Part shown: positions 25,600 to 42,379 of the stretch, piece after piece | Layout: each line of letters begins with the position of its first letter | Position numbering within the stretch: position 1 is the stretch's first letter | Assembly (NCBI GenBank): GCA_015709675.1 | Contig: CP054182.1 | Location: forward strand, 3,947,448-4,011,447 | Source of the DNA: Ignavibacteriales bacterium | Lineage (GTDB): Bacteria > Bacteroidota > Ignavibacteria > Ignavibacteriales > Ignavibacteriaceae | Direction: 5' to 3' | DNA: 64,000 nt | Notes under the pieces: model-generated | The model's database searches: none | Told to the model about the DNA's origin: nothing | Seen by the model: only the letters and a program-made list of their open reading frames with translations | Made by a program: the position numbers and the translations under genes

Positions 25600-26076
25600 A
25601 TGGCAGGTACCTATTCGCAAATATACATACAATATGTCTTTGCCGTAAAAGGAAGACAAAACCTTCTGCTCAAACCCTGGCGTGAAGAAGTTTTTAAATA
25701 TATTTCGGGCATCATCACCGAGAAAGGCCAAAAATCCATCATCGTTAACGGATATAAGGATCATGTCCATGTTTTTGCGGGGCTTCGGCCATCGATGAGC
25801 GTTGCGGATTTAGTCCGTGATATAAAAAATAATTCATCCAAATTCATCAACGAAAAAGGATTTCTTCCGGGAAAGTTTTCGTGGCAGGAAGGGTACGGAG
25901 TTTTTTCCTATGGACACTCCCAGATAAGCGATGTATATAATTATATAGCAAATCAGGAAGAGCGGCACAGAGGCAAATCATTCAGAGAGGAATATATTGA
26001 GTTTTTGAGAAAGTTTGAAGTTGAGTTTAATGAAAAGTATTTATTTGAGTGGGTGGAGGATGAAGGCAACATATAA
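25600..26076 (+). mobile_element. IS200/IS605-type HUH transposase (REP-associated type)
   Basis: 158 residues of the Y1 transposase family. The HUH metal motif is DHVHVF in NGYKDHVHVF, with the helix RPSMSVADLVRDIKNNSSKFINEKG after it. The catalytic Tyr lies in DVYNYIANQEERH, after FSWQEGYGVFSY. The domain is intact, so the protein may be active. There is no tnpB. Flanking hairpins in inverted orientation (25349-25580 and 26081-26300) are the likely substrates or ends, as in RAYT/REP systems, where the enzyme cuts single-stranded hairpin DNA. It is inserted between the hydrolase gene and a lipoprotein gene. Confidence 0.93.
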
Positions 26077-36909: not shown

Positions 36910-37749
36910 TTACGTTGTTTTGAGAACTTTTACTTCAATCATTGACTGCAGGAAAAGAGCGAACTTGTTTACATTGGAAACGCGGACACGCTTCTTTAAG
37001 AGGGTGCTTACGTGACTGCTGCGGATCTTTTCAAACAGTTTGATATAATAGAGATATGCCGAGTAAACTCCCATTCTCACGCCCGGGGTCAGCTTTTTGA
37101 TTCCCTCAAGGGCAAGAGCGAACTCTTCTTCAACTTCCTTCTCAAGACGCGCTTTGTTGATTTCATCAATGCCTTCGGAACTGTCCACACCCGGAAGATA
37201 TATACGTCCCCGCTCCTCGATATCACTCTTGATATCGCGCAGGAAGTTCACCTTCTGAAACGCGGAGCCAAGGGCGCGTGCAGGCTCAAGCAGCGCGTCA
37301 AACTGCTGCTGATCGCCGTCAACAAACACCTTCAGGCACATGAGTCCGACCACTTCGGCAGAACCGTATATATAATTATTGTAACCGTCCTGCTCGTAGT
37401 AACTGTTGGAAAGGTCCATTTCCATGCTGTCCAGAAACGCGATGATATATTTGTGGTCAATCTGGTACTCATTCACCACTTTCTGGAAAGCGTGCAGTAC
37501 CGGATTCAGGGAGATGCCGTCTTCGATAGCCTGGAAGGTATCCTTCCTGAAGCGCTGCAGCAGTTCTTTTTTATTGAAGTCATGGAACGTATCCACAATT
37601 TCATCAGCAAAGCGGACGTAGGCGTAGATGCCGTAAATCGGGTCACGGTATTTGGGAGCAAACGCCATGATGCCCATCGAAAATGATGTGCTGTATTTAT
37701 TGGTTATGATTTTGCTTATGCTGAAAGCAGTGTTATGATAAAGGTCCAT
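36910..37749 (-). CDS. crtB: Phytoene synthase
   Basis: 279 residues of the squalene/phytoene synthase fold. The two Asp-rich prenyl-PP/Mg sites are visible: DEIVDTFHD (near 48-56) and FLRDIKSDIEERGRIYLP (near 167-184). It condenses two geranylgeranyl-PP to 15-cis-phytoene at the membrane. Its start lies within the crtI 3' end (17-nt overlap), so the two enzymes are produced together. Confidence 0.93.
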   Translation of the reverse strand: MDLYHNTAFSISKIITNKYSTSFSMGIMAFAPKYRDPIYGIYAYVRFADEIVDTFHDFNKKELLQRFRKDTFQAIEDGISLNPVLHAFQKVVNEYQIDHKYIIAFLDSMEMDLSNSYYEQDGYNNYIYGSAEVVGLMCLKVFVDGDQQQFDALLEPARALGSAFQKVNFLRDIKSDIEERGRIYLPGVDSSEGIDEINKARLEKEVEEEFALALEGIKKLTPGVRMGVYSAYLYYIKLFEKIRSSHVSTLLKKRVRVSNVNKFALFLQSMIEVKVLKTT

Positions 37750-39211
37750 GATCTTCCTCGATTCTTTCAGTTACTAATTTTGAGCTGATTATTACCATCG
37801 GGAGCCCGGTGCCCGGAGTTGTTGAGGCACCAACATAATAGAGATTATTAAATTCTTCATCTTTGTTGCGCGGACGGAACGCACCCACCTGCATCATGCC
37901 GTGAGCAAGTCCAAGTCCGGAGCCCTTATACAGGTTAAACATGTTTCCCCATTCCGCGGGATCGTAAATTGTTTTTGTCACGATATTGCTGCTGATATCA
38001 TATCCGACACGTTTGCTTAAATCATCAATGATATTCTGCGCTAATTCCTCACGGTCACTCCAGTCGCTTTTAAAGCGGAGATCAGGAACCGGGCAGAGGA
38101 TAAAGATATTTTCATGTCCCTCTGGCGCGCAGTCCGGGAAGGATTTTGATGATACATTGACATAGTAGTAGGGTTTCTGCGGACTGATCGAAGAAGTGAA
38201 TATGGTATCCGCGTATCCCTTAAAATTATTTCCGAGGAAATAGTTGTGATGCTCAAGATTGTCAATCTTTCCTTTAACACCAAGATAAATGGTGAAAGGA
38301 GCAAGAGTCCAGTCCATATTGTCAAGCTTCTGTTCATTCCACTTTTCACGCCTGAGTACCTGACCGCGGAATGATGCCGCGTCGGAGTTGGATATATATA
38401 CATCCGCGTCCCACACGTTTCCGTTCGTGTCTTTCACTCCGGTAACTTTACCGTCAGCGGAAATGACTTCTGCAACTTCTGTATTCAGCACCAGTTTTAC
38501 ATTGCGCTGCTCAAGCAGTTTCATCAGTTCGGTGACCATGCTGTACATTCCACCTTCCACTTTCCAGTAGCCGTTGTGCCGCATCTCCGTGTAGTTAAGC
38601 AGAGAGTAAATAGCTGGAGTCTGAAACGGTGTGGAGCCGAGGAAAAAAGCCACGAGAGAAAAAATTACCTTTACTTCTTCAGAGTCAAAAGTTTCATCCA
38701 CTTCCTTCCACATTGAACGGAAGAGATACGGCAGATGCTTAAGCGGCACTCCGGTAAGAGAAAGAAGATAGCCGGGGATGCTGTTAAAATTTGATTTAAC
38801 CACTTTCCCTTCGGTATCATGGAAAAATTCACCGGCACGTTTCAGATACTTATCTGCTTTTTCAGCAAGATTAGGCTCAAGCCCCTTAAACTCTTCTTCA
38901 AGTTTCTTCAGGTCTTTGAAGATGCGGAAGGGTTTTTCCCGGTGCTCAAAATAAACATTATAGATAGGATCAAGTTCGGTCAATGTCAGAGGATTATTCA
39001 CTCCGCAGGAGTTAAACAGCTCATCCATTTCATAGGTCATGCTCATAAAGGAGGGTCCCACATCAAAGGTAAAGCCATCTTTCTGAAGACGGTTAAGCCG
39101 GCCCCCCGGAGATGAGTGTTTCTCCAGAATGGTAACCTGATGCCCCTTTGAAGAGAGCCGCAAAGCTAACGATAAACCGCCTAAACCTGAACCTATAATT
39201 ACGAACTTCAT
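37733..39211 (-). CDS. crtI: Phytoene desaturase
   Basis: 492 residues with the N-terminal FAD-binding motif VIIGSGLGGLSLALRLSSKGHQVTILEKHSSPGGR. The C-terminal signature (NNLYYVGASTTPGTGLPMVIISSKLV) matches CrtI-type carotene desaturases. It introduces double bases-in-conjugation in phytoene to give neurosporene or lycopene. First gene of a crtI-crtB operon. No cyclase, ketolase or GGPP synthase is nearby, so the final carotenoid cannot be inferred. Confidence 0.93.
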   Translation of the reverse strand: MKFVIIGSGLGGLSLALRLSSKGHQVTILEKHSSPGGRLNRLQKDGFTFDVGPSFMSMTYEMDELFNSCGVNNPLTLTELDPIYNVYFEHREKPFRIFKDLKKLEEEFKGLEPNLAEKADKYLKRAGEFFHDTEGKVVKSNFNSIPGYLLSLTGVPLKHLPYLFRSMWKEVDETFDSEEVKVIFSLVAFFLGSTPFQTPAIYSLLNYTEMRHNGYWKVEGGMYSMVTELMKLLEQRNVKLVLNTEVAEVISADGKVTGVKDTNGNVWDADVYISNSDAASFRGQVLRREKWNEQKLDNMDWTLAPFTIYLGVKGKIDNLEHHNYFLGNNFKGYADTIFTSSISPQKPYYYVNVSSKSFPDCAPEGHENIFILCPVPDLRFKSDWSDREELAQNIIDDLSKRVGYDISSNIVTKTIYDPAEWGNMFNLYKGSGLGLAHGMMQVGAFRPRNKDEEFNNLYYVGASTTPGTGLPMVIISSKLVTERIEEDHGPLS

Positions 39212-39935
39212 TTTCTCACTTTTGAAAAACTATACTACAAAAACCCCCTTACCTTCTCATTAGTTCCGGTAAACTGCCAACGGATAGGTCCGGATTTTCT
39301 AAAAACTGACGTGAAAACCCCCCGGCCGTCTGATTCAGGATTATGTTCCCTAAGTTAGCACATAATTACCTTATACCCGTTCGCTTTTCGTTCAGATAAT
39401 TTATGCCGGCGACTTTTTCCTGTCATGCCGCTTCTGCTCTTCGTCTGCCGTGTAAGTATTTTCATCAATTAAGTTCCCGGGTTGTAGAGAATTTCTACAC
39501 GGGGCGGCTCTGCCTGCAGAGGAATTTTTCAGAACTCTTTTCTCATAAACGACGGGAGTAATTCGGCCCGGCTCCGTCATCCTGCATTCACAAAGCGTAC
39601 GTATATATACGAATTCTTTTTTCAGCGCGGAGTGTATATATATTCATCACCCCTGAAAAAGGAAAGTTTATAATTATAACTATAGCTTTGACCTTTATTT
39701 ACAGGGGTTTCCTGATTCCAAGAAAAAATGAGGATGCTTTCAATAATTGCAGGGCGAGGCGGGATAAAGAAACCCGTTTTTGGTAAAAAATCCGCTGTTT
39801 GTTTATTTTGTTTACGGAGATGCTTCAAAAAAGATGGTTTTTTCAACATCTTCCCTTCTGGCACGCTGTTTGTTTTACCGGGAAAAAGTTACAATTTTTT
39901 TACAGGCGGCATACCCGCCCGAACGAAAGAGACCG
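39212..39935. other. Long intergenic region between divergent crtI and cytochrome operons
   Basis: 724 nt without a credible gene. A 12-bp palindrome CGTATATATACG lies at 39600-39611 with another TGTATATATATT at 39633-39644. AT-rich promoter-like DNA runs from 39650 to 39930. Frames crossing into the cytochrome gene from 39728 or 39780 are extensions without a ribosome site. Divergent promoters for crtI and the decaheme cytochrome must lie here. Confidence 0.5.
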
Positions 39936-41288
39936 ATGTTAAAAAAAGCTTTTCTCCCGCTCATTACCCTTTGCCTTATGGCACTGATTTCAGCAGGATG
40001 CGAATCAGAGAAAATTGGAAATTCAGCAAACCCTGAACCACCCTCATCAGTTGCAAGCTGCGAAGGATGCCACACCAATTACGATTACCTGAAACAGGTT
40101 CACTCCCCTGATACCGCTGCAGCCGGCGGCGGATGCGGCGGTGAAACACCTCATATTGAACCATATGACCGTGTTTATATGGGCGGCGCGGGTTACACTG
40201 CTTTTAAGGCATCAACACACGGCTCACTCCCCTGCATCGGCTGCCATGGCGGTAATGACAAAACAGCTGATAAAAAGCTTGCGCATTCAGGTAATTTCCT
40301 CAGCCATCCTTCAACTAAGGCTGATCAGAAATGCGCCGGATGCCATGCTGATATCGTAGCAAGAACAAAAAACTCCCTGCACGAACAGGGATGGGGCCAG
40401 AAGGCAATGGTTTTCGGACGTTCAGGGCTTAACAGTTTTGATGAACTGAGCGATATGATGAAGATGGGGTATGATAAAAACTGCTCAAAGTGTCACGCAA
40501 CCTGCGGTGACTGCCACATCAACCGTCCTAAAGCCGGAGGCGGCGGACTGCTGAACGGACACAATTTTAAGAAAACCCCTGATATGATTGACAACTGCGT
40601 TACCTGCCATACCAGCAGAGGCGGACATGCCTATCTCGGTATCGGGCCAAACACAGTTCCGGATGTTCACCTTACCAAGCAGGGATTCACCTGCATGAGC
40701 TGCCACAATAAAAATGAGGTACATGGTGACGGCAATATCTATAATCAGCGCTACAAAATGGCTCTGATGCCTTCATGCGATGACTGCCACACCAGTATGG
40801 CAAACGCCAATATGTACCACAGCGTTCATATCAATACCTTCAACTGCAACACCTGCCACTCGCAGGATTATAACAACTGCGGCAGCTGCCATATCGGCGG
40901 TGAAGGCGCCCGGATTGCGTCACATCTGAAATTCAAGATTGGCATGAATCCGATACAAAGCGTCCGCCCCTATAAACTGGCAACCCTCAGGCAGTCACTC
41001 AGCGCTCCTGACAGCTGGAAAGAATACGGAACCGCAAATCTGGCAAACTTCAACAGTCAGCCGACCTATAAATATACCACACCGCATAACATCATCCGCT
41101 GGACCAGCCGTACCAAGGTTGATCCGGGCAAAGCATGTTATGACAACTGCCATATCATTAAAGAAGGCACCACTTTCAGAAACAAACAACTCTACCTGTT
41201 CCAGTCCGATCTGGAGTCATGGGAAGTTCCGGCTAATACCAATATTGTCGTTGACGGAAAATTACCGGCAAGCTGGGGACTGAACTAG
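39936..41288 (+). CDS. Decaheme c-type cytochrome lipoprotein
   Basis: 450 residues from ATG 39936 (MLKKAFLPLITLCLMALISAGC), with lipobox Cys22. Ten canonical CxxCH heme sites are present: CEGCH, CIGCH, CAGCH, CSKCH, CGDCH, CVTCH, CMSCH, CDDCH, CNTCH and CGSCH, all in the N-terminal 330 residues. A further CYDNCH (C-x3-CH) near residue 405 could be a non-canonical site. The C-terminal 120 residues otherwise lack heme motifs. Probably anchored to the outer or inner membrane and moving electrons across the envelope. It depends on a Ccm system, which this window encodes. It is followed after 39 nt by the rhodanese lipoprotein. Confidence 0.93.
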   Translation: MLKKAFLPLITLCLMALISAGCESEKIGNSANPEPPSSVASCEGCHTNYDYLKQVHSPDTAAAGGGCGGETPHIEPYDRVYMGGAGYTAFKASTHGSLPCIGCHGGNDKTADKKLAHSGNFLSHPSTKADQKCAGCHADIVARTKNSLHEQGWGQKAMVFGRSGLNSFDELSDMMKMGYDKNCSKCHATCGDCHINRPKAGGGGLLNGHNFKKTPDMIDNCVTCHTSRGGHAYLGIGPNTVPDVHLTKQGFTCMSCHNKNEVHGDGNIYNQRYKMALMPSCDDCHTSMANANMYHSVHINTFNCNTCHSQDYNNCGSCHIGGEGARIASHLKFKIGMNPIQSVRPYKLATLRQSLSAPDSWKEYGTANLANFNSQPTYKYTTPHNIIRWTSRTKVDPGKACYDNCHIIKEGTTFRNKQLYLFQSDLESWEVPANTNIVVDGKLPASWGLN

Positions 41289-41327
41289 TAGAAACATCGT
41301 TAATATATAAACAGAGAGAAAGAATCC

Positions 41328-42323
41328 ATGAAAAAGCTCCATAAATACCTGTTCCTGTTCATCATCCCCATGCTGTTCATCACTGCATGCTCTGAAGACA
41401 GCACAACCAATCCGCCGGCACCAACAGTCAACGAAGCTGAACTGCTTGTTCAGTATATTGAAAATGACGGCGATTTTATCAACACACTTGCTCCGGCAAT
41501 GATTACCGCTGATGAAGTACGTACCTATCAGCTCACCAAACCTGACAAGATTCATATCATTGATATCCGTCCTGCTACCAATTTTGCAAAAGGGCACATT
41601 GAGGGTTCAGTAAACAAACCTTTGACCGAAGTTCTGAATTATATGAAGAGCATCACTCCTGCCAATTATGAAAAGATTGCATTCGTATGCTTCTCAGGCC
41701 AGACCGCAGGTTACGCTGTATCACTGCTCCGCCTTGCAGGATATAACAATGTCTTTGATCTGAAATTCGGTATGTCAGCATGGAATGATTCTGTTGAAAA
41801 CGTATGGAAACCAAACGTAGGCAATAACTACACCAACTTCGTAACCGATGTTACCGCCAAAGCAGCAGCAGGCGCACTCCCGACACTCAGCACCGGCAAA
41901 ACCACTGGTAAAGAAATTCTTGAAGCACGCATTGCACAGCTTCTTTCAGCTGCAGATCCGTTCGGAGATATCAAGATTTCCTGGCAGACTGTTACCGCTA
42001 ACCTGAGCAACTATTATATTATCAACTACTGGCCTCAGGCACATTATGATATGGGACATCTCCCCGGCGCTATCCAGTATACACCTAAAGTTGATCTGAA
42101 ACTCTCAACCAACCTTAAAACACTTCCGACCAACAAAACGATCGCTCTCTACTGCTATACCGGCCAGACCAGCGCTCAGGTTGTTACCTATTTGAAACTC
42201 CTCGGATATGATGCAAAGTCACTTCTGTACGGTGTAAGCACCATGAATTATAATCTGCTTACTACCAATAATCTGACCACCTGGAAAGATTCGGAATGCA
42301 AATACTATCCGGTAGTTAAGTAA
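41328..42323 (+). CDS. Tandem-rhodanese lipoprotein
   Basis: 331 residues with lipobox Cys21 (MLFITACSED). Two rhodanese domains follow: 60-165 with active-site loop CFSGQT (Cys121) and 190-325 with CYTGQT (Cys276). Each has the preceding GHIEGSVNKPL or GHLPGAIQYTP segment. Both cysteines are present, so both domains could carry persulfide. Placed 39 nt after the decaheme cytochrome, before a strong terminator, so the two form an operon. A role in periplasmic sulfur transfer linked to electron flow is an inference. Confidence 0.92.
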   Translation: MKKLHKYLFLFIIPMLFITACSEDSTTNPPAPTVNEAELLVQYIENDGDFINTLAPAMITADEVRTYQLTKPDKIHIIDIRPATNFAKGHIEGSVNKPLTEVLNYMKSITPANYEKIAFVCFSGQTAGYAVSLLRLAGYNNVFDLKFGMSAWNDSVENVWKPNVGNNYTNFVTDVTAKAAAGALPTLSTGKTTGKEILEARIAQLLSAADPFGDIKISWQTVTANLSNYYIINYWPQAHYDMGHLPGAIQYTPKVDLKLSTNLKTLPTNKTIALYCYTGQTSAQVVTYLKLLGYDAKSLLYGVSTMNYNLLTTNNLTTWKDSECKYYPVVK

Positions 42324-42347
42324 ACGATCCAAGAACCTCAGTTAATG

Positions 42348-42379
42348 AAGCCGGCGCCCGATCAGCGCCGGCTTTTTTT
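42348..42379 (+). terminator. Intrinsic terminator of the cytochrome-rhodanese operon
   Basis: A perfect 10-bp stem AAGCCGGCGC (42348-42357) with GCGCCGGCTT (42365-42374), a 7-nt loop and a following T-run, 24 nt after the rhodanese stop. Confidence 0.95.

Follow-up and report, generated by a model that had tools for sequence, protein, structure and literature searches.

A multiheme c-type cytochrome and a tandem rhodanese encoded as a conserved lipoprotein pair: a candidate surface module for sulfane-sulfur reduction

The gene pair and its products

The window analyzed here, a stretch of 64,000 nucleotides from an Ignavibacteriales bacterium, contains two adjacent lipoprotein genes, termed CYT and RHOD (Table 1). 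The 39-nt gap between them and the terminator that they share had been pointed out in the original prediction, and both were confirmed: a hairpin followed by a T-run lies behind RHOD. A longer listed open reading frame of CYT starting at TTG 39780 was rejected as a mechanical extension, the conserved start being the ATG at 39936. The pair is flanked by a carotenoid-like gene pair and a histidine kinase gene. Just upstream of CYT, adjacent phytoene synthase-like and phytoene desaturase-like genes occupy positions 36910-39211 of the minus strand. Farther away (25600-26076) lies a 158-aa IS200/REP-type transposase-like ORF, and similar ORFs are found in the same genome (L117:15318-15776 and L119:9143-9580).

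Table 1. Coordinates of the CYT-RHOD pair and associated features in the window
Feature	Position	Strand	Remarks
Sigma-54-like -24/-12 element TGGCACGCTGTTTGTT	39859..39874	+	77 nt before CYT ATG; partial match, no GC at -12
CYT, lipoprotein multiheme c-type cytochrome	39936..41288	+	450 aa, 10 CxxCH + 1 CX3CH; ATG to TAG
CYT lipobox Cys22 (GCESEKIG)	39999..40001	+	at least 90% conserved in 74 orthologs
Cys67 in GCGG, non-heme cysteine of CYT	40134..40136	+	invariant, 74 orthologs
CYDNCH, CX3CH candidate 11th heme site, residues 401-406 of CYT	41136..41153	+	C401, C405, H406 invariant, 74 orthologs
RHOD, tandem-rhodanese lipoprotein	41328..42323	+	331 aa; ATG to TAA; PF00581 in two stretches, E 3.3e-27
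RHOD lipobox Cys21, then SEDSTT acidic stretch	41388..41390	+	at least 90% conserved in 67 orthologs
RHOD rhodanese domain 1, residues 69-154	41532..41789	+	catalytic Cys121 at 41688-41690, invariant in 67 orthologs
RHOD rhodanese domain 2, residues about 217-302	41976..42233	+	catalytic Cys276 at 42153-42155, invariant in 67 orthologs
Intrinsic terminator, 11-bp stem + T-run, 3' of RHOD	42347..42375	+	RNA fold z = -4.0

The sigma-54-like element upstream of CYT scores 12.5 of 14.5, and the sister genome L120 keeps TCTGGCACGCTGTTTG at -77 as well. Because 17 sites score at least 12 in 128 kb (both strands), the window site taken alone is only suggestive. A search of the window for a regulator gene adjoining the pair found none. 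In this genome, the NtrC-type proteins that come closest share no more than 49% identity, restricted to the ATPase region.

The ten CxxCH motifs ascribed to one lipoprotein were borne out in CYT (residues 42, 100, 133, 183, 190, 221, 253, 281, 304, and 315). Composition shuffles of the protein (n = 2000) yielded at most 2 such motifs, with a mean of 0.075, and all ten are invariant across 74 orthologs. The Pfam match of CYT is Cytochrome_C7. An eleventh, non-canonical heme had also been suggested at CYDNCH. Here the two cysteines and the histidine are invariant and residues 402-404 between them vary, which supports, without proving, heme attachment at this CX3CH site. An atypical CX3CH is retained in ImcH homologs and has been proposed as a heme-binding motif (PMC6295460). 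Alternatively, C401 and C405 may form a disulfide.

Ten histidines outside the motifs (residues 95, 117, 149, 209, 231, 245, 263, 295, 298, and 384) are likewise invariant in the 74 orthologs. Set against eleven heme-type motifs, ten such histidines are one too few, so that one CYT heme may lack histidine as its sixth ligand. The absence of histidine as sixth ligand is the usual sign of a catalytic heme. Beyond residue 330, His384 is the sole invariant histidine outside the motifs and shares this C-terminal part of CYT with the CX3CH, which makes a self-contained bis-His heme plausible there. In the AlphaFold2 model of CYT (mean pLDDT 86.5), residues 401-406 are coil. A Foldseek search with this model found no confident match to any solved cytochrome, and the ligand-free or catalytic heme could therefore not be placed.

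The second lipoprotein was predicted to carry two intact rhodanese domains, and this is what we found. The active-site loops of RHOD, Cys121-FSGQT and Cys276-YTGQT, follow the pattern C[YF]xGQ, and its AlphaFold2 model (pLDDT 93.8) has rhodaneses as PDB matches. RHOD thus has, by sequence and model, both the fold and the catalytic cysteine in the active-site loop that characterize the rhodanese superfamily PF00581. A tblastn search of plasmids with RHOD returned distant matches only.

Conservation of the pairing and of the catalytic cysteines

Eighteen of 59 related genomes (own included) encode CYT at E <1e-160, and in 18/18 a tandem rhodanese follows directly downstream. A wider scan, for which two conserved peptides served as seeds, covered 84,980 species genomes and gave 203 CYT relatives. 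In the best 80 of these 203, RHOD lies immediately downstream on the same strand in every case (80/80; one RHOD is cut by a contig end). Because the scan was seeded with two peptides and the closest 80 were examined, distant CYT relatives could be unpaired. A phylum-wide search added 14 loci, some from the same MAGs as the other counts, and 14/14 are paired. The synteny check therefore upholds the view of the two genes as one unit.

The pair occurs in Ignavibacteriota, Kapabacteria, Bacteroidales/Marinilabiliales (Bacteroidota), Desulfobacterales (Thermodesulfobacteriota), and one Planctomycetota MAG; Stygiobacter electus and Desulfatitalea alkaliphila are isolates that carry it. No relatives were found in the viral contigs searched. 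Counting CxxCH-like DNA patterns over the whole genome was too noisy for use. The distances of CYT and RHOD in a mirror-tree comparison correlate with r = 0.67, a value to which shared species history contributes; 500 permutations reached no more than 0.13. The setting of the pair in the window, between carotenoid-like genes and a histidine kinase gene, would suit two unrelated genes that became neighbors by chance; the adjacency in 80/80 and 18/18 cases over several phyla has already refuted this explanation, whose probability is next to nil.

Heme-free operons that encode a TonB-dependent receptor and a small lipoprotein also contain genes for RHOD-related tandem-rhodanese lipoproteins, mostly 29-40% identical. 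The first catalytic cysteine is absent in 17/17 of these rhodaneses and the second in 15/17, the replacement being mostly Ser, whereas both are kept in 67/67 rhodanese partners of CYT. Fisher's test of this contrast gives P of about 4e-18 for loop 1 and 9e-15 for loop 2, uncorrected for shared ancestry, and five of the 17 heme-free-operon proteins come from one locus. The loss of the cysteines in the heme-free relatives and their retention beside CYT tie persulfide chemistry to the cytochrome pairing. This contrast is our strongest evidence that such chemistry belongs to the pair. Together with the invariance of the catalytic cysteines, it favors the envelope electron/sulfane-sulfur role that was originally proposed, as far as sequences can speak to it.

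Operons of the heme-free type, with a TonB-receptor, a lipoprotein, and a tandem rhodanese whose cysteines are mostly Ser, are present at loci L077-L089 (e.g. L077:3157-7424). Instead of acting as an enzyme, their rhodanese may be a binding protein at the surface. At L079:5995-11604 (G057), five consecutive tandem-rhodanese lipoprotein genes stand behind the TonB-receptor operon, and all five products have lost the catalytic cysteines. Beside the CYT-RHOD pair of L151 and L210:5129-9500 (G371), we noticed a second, Cys-bearing tandem rhodanese, then a large multiheme protein that resembles the CYT profile and gives a Por-secretion-cluster match. In L151 it has 24 CxxCH.

Linked conduit, surface signals, and proposed function

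At 17 of the 80 loci (best 80 of 203), genes of a porin-cytochrome conduit lie directly upstream of the pair. Their usual order is a tetraheme c554-like protein (15 loci), a beta-barrel of ~420 aa, a 12-14-heme protein, and a 5-28-heme lipoprotein bearing the Geobacter-type CxxxxCH motif. The surface lipoprotein usually has 5-10 CxxCH and is enlarged to 28 at L069:9981-12602 (G047). Among the 59 relatives, the barrel was found in 53 and the 14-heme protein in about 54; one count of 57 includes a few weak partial matches. The window's genome encodes the conduit elsewhere (C1:2432233-2436256, or C1:2431725-2436256 with the adjoining MarR gene). It also has an 892-aa ORF with 36 CxxCH motifs at C1:1799315-1801990 (L118:9316-11991). 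Most conduit-holding genomes are without the pair, and many pair loci have no conduit nearby. Because the conduit genes are widespread in the relatives, including the window's genome, the pair as judged from gene content accompanies a common conduit as an accessory, and whether a genome has the pair cannot be predicted from the conduit alone.

The regulator genes beside the pair differ by lineage, with PAS/sigma-54 activators at 25 loci, MarR at 15, and a divergent Crp/Fnr type at 11. Sites of the -24/-12 type occur upstream in 19/24 of the loci with sigma-54 activators vs. ~4.5% of shuffles; at loci of the MarR and Crp/Fnr classes, the counts are 2/14 and 1/11. Of the originally proposed two-gene composition, the pair itself held, but the whole unit is usually larger and often includes a conduit and a regulator, neither of which is present in the window.

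The link to a conduit of a generally metal-reducing type, and three regulator families that fit a varied physiology, would suit a CYT that serves generically as the surface end of metal or electrode reduction, with RHOD outside the electron path as an accessory for persulfide signaling, repair, or protection. However, RHOD is never missing or replaced in the 80 loci (best 80 of 203), and its catalytic cysteines are invariant beside CYT and lost in the heme-free operons. We regard this explanation as rather unlikely.

Acidic residues right after the lipid-attached cysteine (SDDDD-like) are the export signal of Bacteroidota surface lipoproteins (PMC5080379). At least two D/E at +1 to +5 after this cysteine were found in 54/73 cytochromes and 55/66 rhodaneses, and most Bacteroidota/Ignavibacteriota members have an acidic stretch (CSDDDD-like) in both proteins, so that the CYT and RHOD families both bear the surface signal in sequence. 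Rhodaneses of Desulfobacterales are without the stretch, as expected if the signal is lineage-specific. On the basis of the lipobox and the acidic stretch, CYT and RHOD are probably displayed at the cell surface.

We propose that the pair could be a cell-surface module that reduces sulfane sulfur with electrons from the conduit, a reading in which substrate and direction are inferred and to which we give a probability of about 0.4. In this scheme, electrons would cross the outer membrane through the porin-cytochrome conduit, which is encoded elsewhere in the window's genome, and would be received by the outer-membrane-anchored 11-heme CYT. RHOD, anchored beside CYT, would take sulfane sulfur from external polysulfide or zero-valent sulfur, hold it as a persulfide on Cys121/Cys276, and present it to CYT. 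Reduction to sulfide would then occur at CYT, probably at the heme without an invariant histidine as sixth ligand. The surface location, the eleventh heme, the sulfur substrate, the reductive direction, and direct contact of CYT with RHOD are all parts that we infer. No substrate-specific gene was seen beside the pair, which counts against the sulfane-sulfur reading, as does the use of the rhodanese fold for carrying selenium and in other roles.

The direction could also be reversed. CYT would then oxidize sulfide at the surface and RHOD would accept the sulfane sulfur as a persulfide, the electrons passing inward or to another acceptor. Conduits can run both ways, no anatomical feature of the pair fixes the direction, and the pair is present in Desulfobacterales and sediment lineages. 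The sequence relatives of CYT, as far as visible, are reductases (OTR, NrfA, ExtM), however, and we consider sulfide oxidation unlikely.

If the reductive reading is true, extracellular electron transfer would be linked directly to sulfane-sulfur chemistry. It would bear on the respiration of insoluble or polymeric extracellular sulfur without a molybdenum polysulfide reductase. The fullest form of the proposal is a molybdenum-free extracellular sulfur reductase, present in at least four phyla, in which a conduit-fed surface 11-heme CYT, with one CX3CH heme and one heme open to substrate, would act on RHOD-supplied persulfide. This more detailed version we hold to be doubtful.

Comparison with known systems

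By its profile matches, CYT forms an unnamed family of its own; its similarity to octaheme tetrathionate reductase (OTR), NrfA, and ExtM is weak and recurrent. CYT passes no curated NCBIfam cut-off and is therefore currently missed by annotation. For DmsE (TIGR03508) it reaches 13.6 bits vs. a cut-off of 192, and it has no match to the OmcA/MtrC decaheme model TIGR03507. The Pfam MtrC/MtrF domain is matched at E 0.01 or better by 26/74 CYT members.

Similarity to OTR (TIGR04315, PDB 1sp3) is confined to a weak profile match over residues 177-312 (E 5e-5; 0.0019 with a larger profile). TIGR04315 is weakly matched by 7/74 orthologs, at most at about 30 bits vs. a cut-off of 375, and PF11783 has no match in CYT. 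With scores far below the cut-off, and ten CxxCH and a CX3CH rather than eight hemes, CYT was rejected as an OTR. A true OTR (TIGR04315 604 bits, PF11783) is encoded in the window's genome at C1:1342864-1346865 (L117:7865-11866), followed by genes for a cytochrome b-like protein, a YeeE-like transporter, and a YeeE-like protein with a rhodanese-like C-terminal part. This locus is a second multiheme/sulfur-handling linkage in the genome, and OTR scores above cut-off in 37/59 relatives.

The best-scoring NCBIfam model of CYT is ExtM (NF040943), which matches 50/74 orthologs locally. In Geobacter sulfurreducens, extHIJKLMNOPQS encodes the rhodanese lipoprotein ExtH, the porin ExtI, and the multihemes ExtKL/M/N/S, with cytochromes of 5, 10, and 12 hemes, and mutants without extI are impaired in reducing selenite and tellurite (PMC5877670, PMC6148476). 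The pair might accordingly serve an Ext-like reduction of selenite or tellurite oxyanions, RHOD binding Se or Te species and CYT reducing them; ExtM as the top model, and the pairing of a rhodanese lipoprotein with a porin and multihemes in extH-S, speak for it. However, the ExtM match of CYT consists of two short stretches with 30.3 bits vs. the cut-off of 800, for which CYT was rejected as an ExtM. Full-length ExtM-like proteins (about 640-950 aa) exist separately in the relatives, and no protein in the 59 relatives passes the 800-bit cut-off of NF040943. Family models run on representative neighbors recognized no ExtI, ExtO, ExtP, or ExtKL selenoprotein beside the pair. An Ext system would have ExtI, ExtJ, ExtKL, ExtN, ExtO, and ExtP clustered with the rhodanese, and the genes that repeatedly adjoin the pair at the examined loci are others. 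An Ext-like role is therefore quite improbable in our judgment.

The original prediction knew of no characterized system of this composition. We found no description of the CYT-RHOD pair in the open-licence literature, nor of the cytochrome-rhodanese extension of the conduit and its regulators; the statement needs qualification in that partial precedents exist. The linked conduit (4-heme, barrel, 14-heme, and 5-28-heme lipoprotein) shares its general architecture with porin-cytochrome conduits of the Ignavibacteria Melioribacter and Ignavibacterium (PMC7399161). In Dethiobacter alkaliphilus, clusters 5-T and 4 encode an OTR/SirA-like octaheme and rhodanese-domain proteins, which the authors linked to sulfur reduction (PMC10376724). 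There, too, the multiheme cytochrome is a distant relative of the octaheme reductases of sulfur oxyanions, and rhodaneses are encoded with it. Unlike CYT, which is likened to it by description, the Dethiobacter cytochrome is an octaheme, 20-23% identical to Otr/SirA.

The Geobacter extH-S cluster resembles the CYT-RHOD loci in that a rhodanese lipoprotein is encoded beside an outer-membrane barrel and multiheme cytochromes. Its rhodanese was proposed as the exposed component, and its ExtM is locally similar to CYT. The differences are that ExtH, about 49 kDa, is bigger than the 331-aa RHOD, that ExtM has 12 hemes, and that a Rieske/cytochrome b or selenoprotein was not recognized beside the pair. 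Unlike in the ext cluster, the 11-heme CYT is itself a lipoprotein and is always encoded immediately 5' of the rhodanese.
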